Part shown: positions 23,488 to 29,260 of the stretch, in pieces | Layout of the letters: each line of letters starts with the position of its first letter | How positions within the stretch are numbered: position 1 is the stretch's first letter | NCBI GenBank assembly: GCA_031258225.1 | Contig: JAIRND010000040.1 | Location: 1-33,966, forward strand | Length of the DNA stretch: 33,966 nt | Source: Treponema sp. | GTDB lineage: Bacteria; Spirochaetota; Spirochaetia; Treponematales; Breznakiellaceae | Direction of reading: 5' to 3' | Notes under the pieces: model-generated | What the model saw: the letters and a program-made list of their open reading frames with translations, nothing else | What the model was told of the DNA's origin: nothing | Database searches by the model: none | Position numbers and translations under genes: made by a program

Positions 23488-23691
23488 GTATCACCTGTAA
23501 AATTGCTGATCCCGGAGGTGGGGCTAAATTTGGCCCACATTGCGCATCACCACTGCCGCGGCACAAATCCGTCCGGCGGGGCGACAAGATGGACCGATTC
23601 GCCGGCTAGTACGCAGTCATGATTGTAATTGTGGGTTTTTTGGTGCTTCCGATGCTTCCCGAACCTCCACGACTCTGCCCTCTTTGTGGTG

Positions 23692-23837
23692 TAGTCAGAC
23701 ATCATTCAACCTGGGTTTTAGGTTTGATACCCTCCTAACCTTAACTCCCTATCGTGAACCGCTGCGGGGGCGGTAGAGGGTTACGTTCAGGCGTATCAAA
23801 CTGAACTACTCACAGGTTGAATGCTGACTGCGTACTA
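23692..23837. repeat. Inverted-repeat (MITE-like) element
   Basis: TAGTcagacatCATTCAACCTGgGttttaGgTTTGATAC (23692-23730) is inverted relative to the complement of 23792-23837 (TAGTACGCAGTCAGCATTCAACCTGTGAGTAGTTCAGTTTGATACG). Confidence 0.65.
23792..23837 (-). repeat. 46-bp repeat copy, starting at the nuclease stop codon
   Basis: Reverse complement TAGTACGCAGTCAGCATTCAACCTGTGAGTAGTTCAGTTTGATACG; 43/46 identical to 28985-29030. Confidence 0.9.
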
Positions 23838-24602
23838 GCCCCACAGACCGCGCCCCGTGCGGCGGGCCTCCTGTTCCAACGCGCGGAACTCGTCCATGAA
23901 CTGAAAACTGTAGACGGTGTAGGCGTGGGCGTACCCTTCCCGGATAAGGGCGGCGTTATGACAGTCCCCATCGGGGCCGTAGATGTAGGCCAGGAGCCGG
24001 CCATAGCGATCCCGCCGGTCCCAGTCAAAGGCCAGGAAGACGGATTTGCCCAAAAGTTTTTGCCGGGTGAACTCGCTGGCCTCCTTGCCAAAGAATTCCA
24101 GGTCCCGCCTCGGGTGAACGGTCTCCGGGGTATCTACCCCGATCATCCTGATGGTTTCCACCGCCTCCAGCCCCAACGGAGGATTCCTGATCCGTACCCG
24201 CACCGTATCGCCATCCACGTGGTCCACTACGTCGGCCCTGGTCATGCGGGACAGGTCCGCCTGGCCGGTACCGCGCAGTCCCGCGATGTTCACCTGGTAC
24301 AACGCGGCTGTCCGGAAAGGAACCGGCGGGACCTCAAGCACCGGCGGCTTACAGATAGCGCAGGGCTCGTAACCGGACCCTGCGGCGTCTGCCAGGGTTA
24401 AGGCAATTTTTGAGCGGCTAAGGCTGCCGCAGTTTTCCCGGTGGTACTTTTTTCCCGTGCTGGTTACATAAACCGTATAGTCATCCGGGTTTTCGGCATC
24501 CGCGGGTGTTTCGGCGGCCAGCGGACCCCGGAGGAGCAGCAGGGCCGCCAGCAGAACCGGCGGTACCGCCAGAAATTTCATTATGGCGCCTTCTTTTTTC
24601 AT
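23835..24602 (-). CDS. Secreted thermonuclease (SNase)-family protein with N-terminal CxxC motif segment
   Basis: Signal peptide MKFLAVPPVLLAALLLLRGPLAAE; YVTSTGKKYHRENCGSLSRSK...GYEPCAICKPP; SNase motifs VDHVDGDTVRV, IRMIGVDTPETVHPRRDLEFFGKEASEFTRQKLLGK, DRYGRLLAYIY, LIREGYAHAYT. Confidence 0.92.
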   Translation of the reverse strand: MKKEGAIMKFLAVPPVLLAALLLLRGPLAAETPADAENPDDYTVYVTSTGKKYHRENCGSLSRSKIALTLADAAGSGYEPCAICKPPVLEVPPVPFRTAALYQVNIAGLRGTGQADLSRMTRADVVDHVDGDTVRVRIRNPPLGLEAVETIRMIGVDTPETVHPRRDLEFFGKEASEFTRQKLLGKSVFLAFDWDRRDRYGRLLAYIYGPDGDCHNAALIREGYAHAYTVYSFQFMDEFRALEQEARRTGRGLWG

Positions 24603-24659
24603 TGGGTGAGTATACCAAGAGCAATAGTTCAACACTATACTAAACTACAGTGGAGAATC

Positions 24660-26075
24660 ATGGAAAGGGAAGGAGCGGTTGAAAGATTTCGCCGGGCCAT
24701 ACGGATCAGGACCGATTGGCCGGAAAACGCGCGGGGAAAAGAACCGCCCCCGGAGGTTCTGGAGGCCGCCGAGGCGCCGCTAAGGGCTTTTCAGGATTTT
24801 TTGGCCGTGGCGTATCCCCGTTTCTTCCGTACCGCGGAACACTGGGTTCTTAATCCCTACGCTCTGGTGTTCCGTTGGCCCGGCGCGTCATCCGGCGCAA
24901 TTCCGGGTCCGGAGGCGGTGCTGATCCTGGCCCACTACGACGTGGTGCCGGTGGAGGCGGACAAGTGGAGCGCCGATCCCTTTGGGGCGGAAATCAAGGG
25001 GGGCTTCCTGTACGGCCGGGGCGCCCAGGATATGAAGGGGAATCTTATCGCCCTTATGGAGGCGGCGGAAGAACTTAGTATCCAGGGTTTCAGGCCGCGG
25101 CGGGACATCTGGTTTGCCTTTGGCGGCGACGAGGAACGTTCCGGCCTTATGGGCGCCCAGACAATGGCCGCCTGGTTTGCCGGCCGGGGACAGCGGTTTT
25201 CGTGGATTCTGGACGAGGGAAGCCCGGTAACTATCAACCAGATACGGGGAATCAACATCCCCCTGGCCCTGTTCAGCGTTGAGGAAAAGGGCTTTCTAAG
25301 CCTGGAGTTGGCGGTGGATCAAAAACCCGGACATTCGTCCCGGCCTCCCCGTGTGCAGGCGGTTGCCCTGCTGGCCCGGGCGCTGCTGCGGATATCCCGC
25401 CGGCCCTTTCCCGTCCGGCTAAGCCCCACGGTGGCGGCGCTTTTTTCCCATCTGACGGAATTACGGGCCCAGGAACGGGGCAGAACCCCCCGCCCCTGGG
25501 CTATTGCGTTAACGACCGCTATTCTGAGCGCCCTGGGCCCCCTGGTGGCGCCGATCCTGGCCCTTGGCTTCCGCAAGGATCCGCAGATCCTCGCCCTGCT
25601 CTGTACCACTGTGGCAATGACCCAACTGGAGGGCAGTCCGGCGGACAATGTTATGCCCTCCCGGGCGCGGGCCGTGATCAATCTGCGGCTTCTGGCCCCC
25701 TGGTCCGTGGACGACGCGATCAACTACATAAGCTGGATCATAGGGGATGACCGGGTTAAAATTCGTGTCCTGGGCTTTGCCTCCTCCCCGGTTCCGGCGC
25801 ACCCCGAACATGGACGCGAGCGGGGACCCGGTTGGGAGGAAATGGCAAAGGCGGTACGGGCGGTTTTTCCCGGCGCGGTTCCAATACCCTTTATCATGAC
25901 CGCCGCCACCGATTCCCGGCATTACCAGAAACTTGCCGGGGGGATATTCCGGTTCAGTCCCATGCGGCTTTCACCGGCGGATATGAGTTCGGTACACGGC
26001 CATGATGAGCGAATTTCCCTGGAGAATTTCTTCCTGGCTATCAAGTTCTATACCACCCTTATTGGGATGCTGTAG
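24660..26075 (+). CDS. M20-family metallopeptidase (PM20D1/carboxypeptidase S-like)
   Basis: VLILAHYDVVPVEADKWSADPFGAEIKGGFLYGRGAQDMKGNL; FAFGGDEERSGLMGA; start trimmed to MEREGAVERF. Confidence 0.92.
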   Translation: MEREGAVERFRRAIRIRTDWPENARGKEPPPEVLEAAEAPLRAFQDFLAVAYPRFFRTAEHWVLNPYALVFRWPGASSGAIPGPEAVLILAHYDVVPVEADKWSADPFGAEIKGGFLYGRGAQDMKGNLIALMEAAEELSIQGFRPRRDIWFAFGGDEERSGLMGAQTMAAWFAGRGQRFSWILDEGSPVTINQIRGINIPLALFSVEEKGFLSLELAVDQKPGHSSRPPRVQAVALLARALLRISRRPFPVRLSPTVAALFSHLTELRAQERGRTPRPWAIALTTAILSALGPLVAPILALGFRKDPQILALLCTTVAMTQLEGSPADNVMPSRARAVINLRLLAPWSVDDAINYISWIIGDDRVKIRVLGFASSPVPAHPEHGRERGPGWEEMAKAVRAVFPGAVPIPFIMTAATDSRHYQKLAGGIFRFSPMRLSPADMSSVHGHDERISLENFFLAIKFYTTLIGML

Positions 26076-26084
26076 GTTCAGCCC

Positions 26085-27023
26085 GTGCCAAGCATCGAAT
26101 ACCGGGCAAAACTTATAAGGGCCGCCTCCCTTATCGCCCTGGGGGGGAATTTGGTCCTGGGGACCTTCAAAATTGGAAGCGGGATCCTGGCCGGCAGCCT
26201 GGCGGTTTTAGGAGACGGTATCGACTCCCTGGTGGATATCCTTATCGCCATCATGGCCCTGGTGGTGTCCCGTGTGGTGTCCCGCCCGGCTGACCTGGAG
26301 CACCCCTGGGGTCATGGCCGGGCGGAGACCATCGCCACCGCCCTTTTGGCCTTTTTGCTGTTCTTTGCGGGGGCCCAGCTTATCCTTAACTCGATAAACC
26401 AGCTTGTTTTTGAGCGGAGCCGTGAGCTACCCGGGCGGCTGGCCCTGGCGGCTACCCTGGTTTCCATCGTGGGCAAGACCTTACTGGCCCTTGTTCAGTC
26501 CTTTTTCGGCAAAAAGGCGGATTCCGCCATGCTGCGGGCCAACGCCAAGAACATGACCGGAGACGTGATCCTCTCCCTGGGGGTGCTGGCCGGCCTGGGG
26601 ATTTCACTTGGAACCGGAATCGCCGTTTTGGATTCCATTACCGCCATTCTGGTGGGGCTGTGGGTTATCCGTTCCGCAGTGGGTATTTTTATCGAGGCGA
26701 ATCTGGAACTGATGGACGGCAGCGCGGAGACTGACGCCTACAAGTCGGTTTTTGACGCGGTCCATTCGGTTCCGGGGGCGGGGAACCCCCACCGGACCCG
26801 GATGCGGCGCATCGCGGGACTTTGGGACATCGACATTGATATTGAGGTGGACCCGAACCTTACGGTATACGCCGCTCACCGCATCGCTACCCAGGTGGAA
26901 CTGGCGATCAAGAACAGGTTAGAGGGTATCTTTGACATTATGGTCCATGTGGAACCTTCCGGAGACCACCATCGCGGGGATACGGAAGGTTACGGCCTGA
27001 GTGAAGAGGAGATTCACGTCTAA
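26085..27023 (+). CDS. Cation diffusion facilitator (CDF) family transporter
   Basis: NLVLGTFKIGSGILAGSLAVLGDGIDSLVDILIAIMALV, HPWGHGRAETIATALLAFLLFFAGAQL; GTG start. Confidence 0.92.
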   Translation: MPSIEYRAKLIRAASLIALGGNLVLGTFKIGSGILAGSLAVLGDGIDSLVDILIAIMALVVSRVVSRPADLEHPWGHGRAETIATALLAFLLFFAGAQLILNSINQLVFERSRELPGRLALAATLVSIVGKTLLALVQSFFGKKADSAMLRANAKNMTGDVILSLGVLAGLGISLGTGIAVLDSITAILVGLWVIRSAVGIFIEANLELMDGSAETDAYKSVFDAVHSVPGAGNPHRTRMRRIAGLWDIDIDIEVDPNLTVYAAHRIATQVELAIKNRLEGIFDIMVHVEPSGDHHRGDTEGYGLSEEEIHV

Positions 27024-27070
27024 CACAGGCTTACGTTGATAGTGAGAATTCCGATATTATAACTATACCT

Positions 27071-28987
27071 ATGACCAAGGCAACGGACCTTTATGCCATT
27101 ATGCGGGCGTATTCGAAAAAAAATAACTCTCCTTACATCGAGATAGACACCTTTATCGCCTTTCTTTCGAAATATGTTGCCCGCCTGGCCGCCGAGCAGC
27201 CCGAATGGACCGATTGGATCAACGACACAAGCCTCAAATTCTGGAATACCCTGGGCGAATACTCCGAAGATGGCCGCTGTATCCTTCTTACCGATACCCC
27301 CCAGGGCCGGGTATACCTGCCCTACTACATCGTGGACAAGCTGAAGGAGGCGTACCGGGACCTGGATGAGTCCGCCGACATGCCCTTTCCAAACGAGGAC
27401 TACTTCGCGGTCAAGCTGCCGCCGGATGAGATCCAAATGCTCAGTCTGGAAACGGATCTGGTTCCCTACTTTGACAAACCGGCCACTTCGTTTCTTCCGG
27501 TTATAAAGCTGGTATTTTCCGAAAGTGGAATAGACGCGCTGATCCTTGCCCCCATGATCCCCCACCGTCTGCTGGAGGCGGCAATCCTCAAGGTACGGTA
27601 CCACGTCAAGCAGCACAACAACCGCGAGTACTACATGCACAAACTGCTCCCCATGTTCCAGAGCAAGGAAGGTTCCCTGCGTGAAACCCTGGAAATGCTG
27701 AATTCCCGGCCCCTGGACTGCCTTAACGCCATAGAGGGAGGGGGAGAGGTAACTTACCTGTTCTGGGCTTCCCTCTGTTCATTTCTTAAAAGTGATATCC
27801 GGAAAAAAACCGAACGGCTTTCCGGGGATGTGGCCGTTTTGGAGGGGATTCACATTATTGAAACCTGCCTGAACCTCTATAAAACCCGGCTGCAACGGGA
27901 ACGGGAACGGGAAACCGCCCTTAGGGCCCTGGATCAGCTTATGGAGAAACCCCCCTATTACTTCACCCAGGATCAGATCATCAAATTTACCGACAACAAA
28001 GGGGCGCTCCTTCTTACCCAGTACACCGAAGCGGATTTGAACGACTTTATCAGGAAAAAGGTCAACGAAAGTGTAGAGGGGGCAATTCCCGAATGGCTGG
28101 TGGTGCAGTCAAAGAACGGGGAGCAGTACTATCTAAAAAAAGACAAGTACCTGCCCCTGGTAACCCGGCTTGTCTTTGACGCCCAGAGTGTCATAAAACA
28201 GGAAGTTGCCAACCGCTGGGCCACAATGCTCGGTGATTTTAAGTCTGAACCGGCAATGGAAACAGATGCGGAATTTGAGCGGCTTCTTGCCAATCTTAAC
28301 GCCGCCATGAATCCGCTGCTTGCCACTTTTTTGGGGAATAAAAAACTCCCCTGGGTCTATGATGAGCTGGAACGGACCCAAAAGGTCATTCCGCCCGCTT
28401 CCCGCATTTTTGAACGGGGGAAACTTATCCCCTACAGCCTGCTTTTTGTGATGAAACGCAAAGATATGCTCTTTGACGCCAAGATGGCCCTGCCCTTTTG
28501 GTACTCAATTCCCATCATCAGTTCAATTATCGCCTTCTTTGTTAAGCTGGGGAAGAAGAAGAAAAAGAGCTACCAAACAGCCAAAAAACCCAACGAAAAC
28601 GCCGGCCTGACCGACGGAGAGATTGTGGAAGTCAAAAAACATTCCAGAGATTTTATCAACAGTATTCGGGAAATGGAGACCCAAATGGTCCCCATAGACA
28701 AGGATATTGACGGCTATCTTGGGGAACTGAAAAATCATTGGGGGCAGCTTGTGGACCCAAAAGCCCAGCGGAATCTGGTGGAAGATGTCAATTCCCTGGT
28801 GCGGGATAACCTGCGGCAGTCGATACGCGTATGGAAAAAACAGCGCCTTAGTCAGATCAACCTGCAGGACCTGGCCCAGGGAATTGTCAACGGGAACCCC
28901 GTGCTGCGGAACATAAACAGCCGGGACGCCCTTCTTCTCTACATGCAAATTTACATGGTAAAAATGCTAAAAACCATAAAAATCTAG
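27071..28987 (+). CDS. Conserved-looking protein of unknown function, 638 aa, one predicted TM segment
   Basis: Long ORF with codon usage like its neighbours; hydrophobic segment PFWYSIPIISSIIAFFVKLGKKKKKS near residue 480. No family recognised. Confidence 0.75.
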   Translation: MTKATDLYAIMRAYSKKNNSPYIEIDTFIAFLSKYVARLAAEQPEWTDWINDTSLKFWNTLGEYSEDGRCILLTDTPQGRVYLPYYIVDKLKEAYRDLDESADMPFPNEDYFAVKLPPDEIQMLSLETDLVPYFDKPATSFLPVIKLVFSESGIDALILAPMIPHRLLEAAILKVRYHVKQHNNREYYMHKLLPMFQSKEGSLRETLEMLNSRPLDCLNAIEGGGEVTYLFWASLCSFLKSDIRKKTERLSGDVAVLEGIHIIETCLNLYKTRLQRERERETALRALDQLMEKPPYYFTQDQIIKFTDNKGALLLTQYTEADLNDFIRKKVNESVEGAIPEWLVVQSKNGEQYYLKKDKYLPLVTRLVFDAQSVIKQEVANRWATMLGDFKSEPAMETDAEFERLLANLNAAMNPLLATFLGNKKLPWVYDELERTQKVIPPASRIFERGKLIPYSLLFVMKRKDMLFDAKMALPFWYSIPIISSIIAFFVKLGKKKKKSYQTAKKPNENAGLTDGEIVEVKKHSRDFINSIREMETQMVPIDKDIDGYLGELKNHWGQLVDPKAQRNLVEDVNSLVRDNLRQSIRVWKKQRLSQINLQDLAQGIVNGNPVLRNINSRDALLLYMQIYMVKMLKTIKI

Positions 28988-29030
28988 TACGCAGTCAGCA
29001 TTCAACCTGTGGATAGTTTAGTTTGATACG
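28985..29030 (+). repeat. 46-bp repeat copy, starting at the stop codon of the 638-aa ORF
   Basis: TAGTACGCAGTCAGCATTCAACCTGTGGATAGTTTAGTTTGATACG, inverted relative to 23792-23837. Confidence 0.9.
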
Positions 29031-29090
29031 TGCCCTGACCTTCCCTACCCTTGTCCCGGCAGGGGCGGGGATAGCCCGGCGGAAAACCTT

Positions 29091-29191
29091 GTATAACGGT
29101 CTCTCGAACTCCTCCAACATTAATTCGGCTGGAGAGCGGCCTGCCGCTCCCCAGCGGGTTGCTGTTGGAGGAAATCAACAGATCGTTATAC
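29091..29191. repeat. Large two-level hairpin element (101 bp)
   Basis: Outer arms GTATAACGGTCTCTCGAACTCCTCCAACA (29091-29119) / TGTTGGAGGAAATCAACAGATCGTTATAC (29163-29191), about 24/29 paired; inner CTGGAGAGCGGC-ct-GCCGCTCCCCAG (29129-29154). Confidence 0.85.
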
Positions 29192-29260
29192 CTAAGTAAA
29201 CGCACATGGTGCCTGACACCGGTTCCATTTGGGCCGGGGCCATGCTACAATCCGGTTGTC

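Follow-up and report, generated by a model that had tools for sequence, protein, structure and literature searches.

The two inverted repeats of the window, by which we mean the whole stretch of 33,966 nucleotides that was analysed (contig C68; the draft amounts to 2.61 Mb in 254 contigs and is 76.5% complete), are very probably ends belonging to two copies, independent of each other, of a high-copy MITE of the IS630 (Tc1/mariner) type, with ordinary chromosome in the block between them. The family is a new one, of high copy number and of a known kind. The first-pass annotation had described the repeats as bracketing a 5.2-kb unit of four genes, with the TAG of each repeat being the stop codon of the adjacent gene, and had suggested either an element whose insertions fall on stop codons or provide them, or a regulatory or terminator module at 3' ends. 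The coincidence with stop codons is real and largely explained, and the bias in orientation is the point that remains.

Element Copies in the Window

The repeats themselves are as real as first described: by far the best inverted repeat of the window has its arms at 23792–23838 and 28984–29030, which are 47 nt long and 94% complementary, and TAG is the in-frame stop in both flanking genes. The element has two types of end, L (TAGTACGCAGTCATCATTCAACCTGTGAG...) and R (TAGTACGCAGTCATGATTGTAATTGTGGGG...). Each of the two repeats is the L end of a separate copy, and since the left one belongs to a complete 231-bp element with its opposite end at 23607, the two copies are not a pair bracketing a unit. 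The features of the region are as follows.

23547–23606, minus strand: 3' remnant of a gene that the element has split at a CTAG, compared with an uninterrupted copy (C219) and with 5' halves (C81 and C148)
23607–23837, minus strand: complete element copy, 231 bp, with L at 23837, R at 23607 and CTAG on both sides; its opposite ends are paired, and it was aligned with four other complete copies
23607–23633, plus strand: R end of the left copy, TAGTACGCAGTCATGATTGTAATTGTG, from the repeat search and the genome-wide comparison of ends
23792–23837, minus strand: L end of the left copy, i.e., the left repeat as first described; its TAG (the complement of 23835–23837) is the SNase stop
23835–24635, minus strand: staphylococcal nuclease-like (SNase) protein, 266 aa (PF00565, E 1.8e-24), with an orthologue in G066; host gene that runs up to the left copy
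24660–26075, plus strand: M20 peptidase (PF01546, E 1.4e-30), host gene
26085–27023, plus strand: cation-efflux (CDF) transporter (PF01545, E 1.9e-33), host gene
27071–28987, plus strand: 638-aa protein without a match in Pfam; host gene that runs up to the right copy
28985–29030, plus strand: L end of the right copy, i.e., the right repeat as first described; its TAG is the stop of the 638-aa gene
28985–29195, plus strand: right element copy, R half missing and right limit approximate, with no R end within 520 bp and a nested palindromic unit inside
29092–29190, plus strand: nested inverted repeat TATAACGGTCTCTCGAACTCCTCCAACA / TGTTGGAGGAAATCAACAGATCGTTATA in the right copy, read from the sequence

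The left arm of the nested repeat recurs in copies on five other contigs (C34, C52, C114, C160 and C252), and a further related piece lies at 23691 of the window. The remnant at 23547–23606 comes from a gene present in several copies, which by eye resembles PD-(D/E)XK proteins and has no Pfam match above the cut-off; the 5' part of the gene is not adjacent.

The Element Family and Its Probable IS630 Parentage

In the genome search that the first-pass annotation had proposed, the core TAGTACGCAGTCA was found 90 times at no more than one mismatch in the 2.6-Mb draft, against a single occurrence of the reversed-pattern control, and the genome holds roughly 60 copies of the element. Eleven copies are complete, with L and R facing each other and a length of 231–503 bp; they have both ends in common and differ in their middles by nested palindromic inserts; these copies carry no transposase and are too short for a transposase gene. 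The base before most ends is C, giving CTAG, and in all complete copies both flanks read CTAG. Many contigs end in the element. The exact long end pattern had no match in a scan of 84,980 species, a collection that possibly does not include the element's own genome, while the exact 13-mer matched in other genomes of the family at about chance level by our estimate, with some of the matches at stops and none for the reversed control.

One genome of the same genus (G145) has the remnant of an IS630 transposase that ends in CTAGTATCCCGACATCATTCAAACTGTAGG, read inward, and this is the same end as that of the MITE. A nearly intact IS630 copy, with one internal stop codon, is present in G127, which belongs to a different genus of the family; the two halves of the copy match NCBIfam NF033545 (E 1.4e-26 and 2.4e-22, each just under the whole-protein cut-off), and the second half of its transposase matches Pfam DDE_3 (PF13358). 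The L end has 21 of 27 identities with the 3' end of this transposon and the R end 18 of 27, and none of 200,000 shuffles was as good; the R end matches both ends of the transposon equally well, so it can be assigned to the 5' end only weakly. Since the ends match an IS630-family transposon of relatives, we take the element, as judged from its termini, to be an IS630 (Tc1/mariner) MITE, the matching TIR being that of a transposon of a related genus and not from its own genome. No IS630 transposase (PF13358/DDE_3) was found in its own assembly, which is 76% complete, and so the transposase on which the copies here probably depend would be either lost by now or in the missing quarter of the genome.

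Stop Codons and the Orientation of the Copies

By simple reading-frame calls, which make the shares approximate, 29 of 50 usable L flanks end exactly at the in-frame stop that closes a long reading frame, and four adjoin an out-of-frame stop. Of the 33 L junctions that a long sense frame reaches, 29 have the TAG in frame, one third being expected (p ~1e-10), which places the coincidence that had been seen in the window beyond chance. Four of the stop-codon copies are without the preceding C (C65, C102 and, twice, C224). The R ends are at stops in 5 of 25 cases by the classifier, or in 3 of 25 when two doubtful reading frames are left out, and the difference between L and R corresponds to Fisher p values of 0.003 and 0.00015, respectively. 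Copies are also found between genes, beside or at the ends of another repeat family, 3' of tRNA-like sequence, or inside a gene at an out-of-frame CTAG. At C217 6442, the L end directly follows sequence that resembles the 3' end of a tRNA gene. A second palindromic repeat, of about 75 bp (TAGCAGCCTGTTGC...), is likewise located on CTAG and at stop codons (G066 C57 4721–4797, C146 5380–5453, and flanks in the own genome), and in G066 it occupies the stop of the same gene whose stop holds an L end on the own contig C234.

Most orthologues in sister species have their last residue at the same position or at one next to it, followed by TAA, TGA or TAG, and lack the element, and hence the element did not shorten the proteins; orthologues of the 638-aa protein in four other genomes of the genus likewise have the same end position and no element. 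Related families in sister species are at stops in a minority of sites, and the related MITEs of G145 have neither a strong stop preference nor a clear L bias (L 2/15, R 1/11).

If the target is palindromic, L and R should be equally frequent at stops, and the excess of L over R is the remaining anomaly. It would be accounted for if the L end had become a 3'-UTR module, kept after stops since its transcribed hairpin stabilises or ends the mRNA, and two further observations agree with this: L ends are retained at stops in copies that have lost the R half, and each strand of the window copy at 23607–23837 folds better than all of 200 shuffles (z −5.3 and −6.7). However, as both strands fold strongly, folding does not explain the bias, and the G145 counts given above also speak against such a module. 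Additionally, no terminator-like site (a stem and then a run of T) was present at either L end of the window, and no Rfam family was matched by the element, by which an intrinsic terminator or a known RNA family is rejected, and the terminator module first suggested finds no support. We therefore regard a 3'-UTR module as unlikely, and there is an equally small chance that, within one species, the L end was recruited by dozens of genes as a common 3'-UTR, with selection keeping one orientation after stops.

Target Site and Insertion

Coming back to the IS630-type MITE, its target can be seen in the gene whose remnant lies at 23547–23606. The uninterrupted paralogue on C219 reads GGAACTAGCCGG, the interrupted paralogues on C81 and C148 pass from GGAACTA into the L end, and TAGCCGG comes after the R end in the window; the site is inside coding sequence, where the CTAG is out of frame and spans a Leu and an Ala codon. 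These empty and interrupted sites fit a TA duplication, although the CTAG flanks fit a 4-bp duplication equally, and the two are indistinguishable because both flanks read CTAG. When the flanks of complete copies were joined, no match spanning the junction was seen across species in the stretches searched. A MITE of the IS5 type that duplicates the 4-bp CTAG, instead of an IS630-type one with TA, would also have CTAG on both flanks of every complete copy, and MITEPsy1, which is probably IS5-related, uses CTAG or YTAA (PMC3189936); nevertheless, comparison with IS630 elements gave a match between their ends and those of our element, which makes an IS5-type origin very unlikely.

For IS630, TA within CTAG has been reported as the preferred target (Tenzen and Ohtsubo 1991, as cited in PMC2170065). 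In the mechanism that we propose, an IS630 transposase acting in trans would have moved the MITE in a cut-and-paste manner to TA sites, most of them in a CTAG, and the insertion would have duplicated TA rather than the 4-bp CTAG. The element starts with G and ends with C, by which CTAG would be restored at each junction, and since each junction reads CTAG, an insertion at a C-TAG stop would leave the protein unchanged. With a TA target and G as the first base, a TAG or TAA stop would become or stay TAG, whichever end faces the gene. Insertions inside genes would mostly be lost, presumably through selection, and CTAG outside genes is mostly at stops in this GC-rich genome, so that the surviving copies would gather at stops.

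The background of CTAG sites can be put in numbers. CTAG is rare (74 sites in 532 kb, element ends excluded), and outside genes it is at stops in 18 of 26 cases in the own genome and, by the same classifier, in 23 of 35 in G066, the latter figure including stops already occupied by another repeat family. Since stops make up about two thirds of the CTAG sites outside genes, and in-gene insertions would be removed by selection, a high share of stops is expected, and the stop-codon coincidence is in this way largely explained. There is only a very small chance that stop codons or termination regions are what the element recognises: the 29 of 33 sense-frame L ends that are in frame and the stop-codon copies without the C of CTAG would agree with it, but the high share at stops is already predicted by the CTAG background, the copies on C81 and C148 are inside coding sequence at an out-of-frame CTAG, and others come after tRNA-like sequence (C217) or at the ends of another repeat family. 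On the in-gene out-of-frame insertions together with the CTAG background, the stop codon was rejected as the recognised target. What stands of the proposal that the element inserts at or supplies stop codons is that the TA target and the G of the element rebuild TAG, with more than half of the usable L flanks exactly at a stop; recognition of stop codons, from which copies are also found away, does not stand.

Gene Block and Synteny

In a Pfam search, nothing in the block resembled a mobile-element gene, in agreement with the first description of the block as free of a transposase. Positions 23838–28990 of the window align with C57 of G066, a sister species, over 5,168 columns at 87% DNA identity, colinear and without elements, and the alignment stops within a few bases of both elements, at both of which synteny is broken; the block is largely colinear also in G095, G118 and G018, again without any element. 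That two inverted repeats carry the 5.2-kb block as a composite mobile unit is scarcely credible, since, although the ends at its flanks are inverted and G066 synteny breaks at both elements, the block is colinear or largely so in four genomes without the element, the L ends face into it, which is the wrong direction for outer ends, and it has no mobile-element gene, the synteny with G066 being the ground on which such a unit was rejected.

Beyond the block, G066 carries thyX and an ssb-like gene (both named from their sequences), and thyX of the own genome is on C234. A rhamnosidase-like gene that directly follows the right copy (window 29249) is found in G066 at C57 30533, about 17 kb further from the block. 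These shifted neighbours, together with the orphan 3' remnant at 23547–23606, suggest that flanks at the block were exchanged by recombination between element copies, although an assembler misjoin at the repeat would look the same. Another exchanged flank is seen at the complete copy on C252, where the R flank beyond 12434 matches sequence downstream of a cytidine deaminase gene in G135, while the own cytidine deaminase is on C159.

Significance

Three things together, the preference for CTAG, the scarcity of this word within genes and the element's first base, allow a transposon to occupy stop codons while proteins stay unharmed, and such harmless filling is a simple, quantitative route to the tolerance of a mobile element at high copy number. 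The presence of the element at contig ends and synteny breaks also matters for the reading of the assembly.

Comparison with Known Systems

Among the closest known systems is RUP of Streptococcus pneumoniae, which, according to PMC2229807, is 107 bp long, is present in about 100 copies, has a TA target and is mobilised by IS630-Spn1. Like our element, it is an IS630-derived MITE with a TA target and with ends common to an IS630 element. The present family differs in that its target is mostly CTAG, about half of its L ends are on stops, and its copies are 231–503 bp long with nested palindromes; no sequence identity with RUP is claimed. The Correia/NEMIS elements of Neisseria are short TA-flanked hairpin MITEs as well, whose transcribed stem-loops act on neighbouring mRNAs; their end sequences are different, and the part of PMC2229807 consulted mentions no stop-codon coincidence for them. 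IS630 of Shigella sonnei and ISY100 have Tc1/mariner-type transposases and insert at TA, IS630 with the CTAG preference already cited (PMC2170065); unlike the present element, which carries no transposase, both are autonomous. Finally, MITEPsy1 of Pseudomonas syringae is similar as a short MITE that uses CTAG or YTAA (PMC3189936), but it is 100 bp long, has few copies and is probably IS5-derived.
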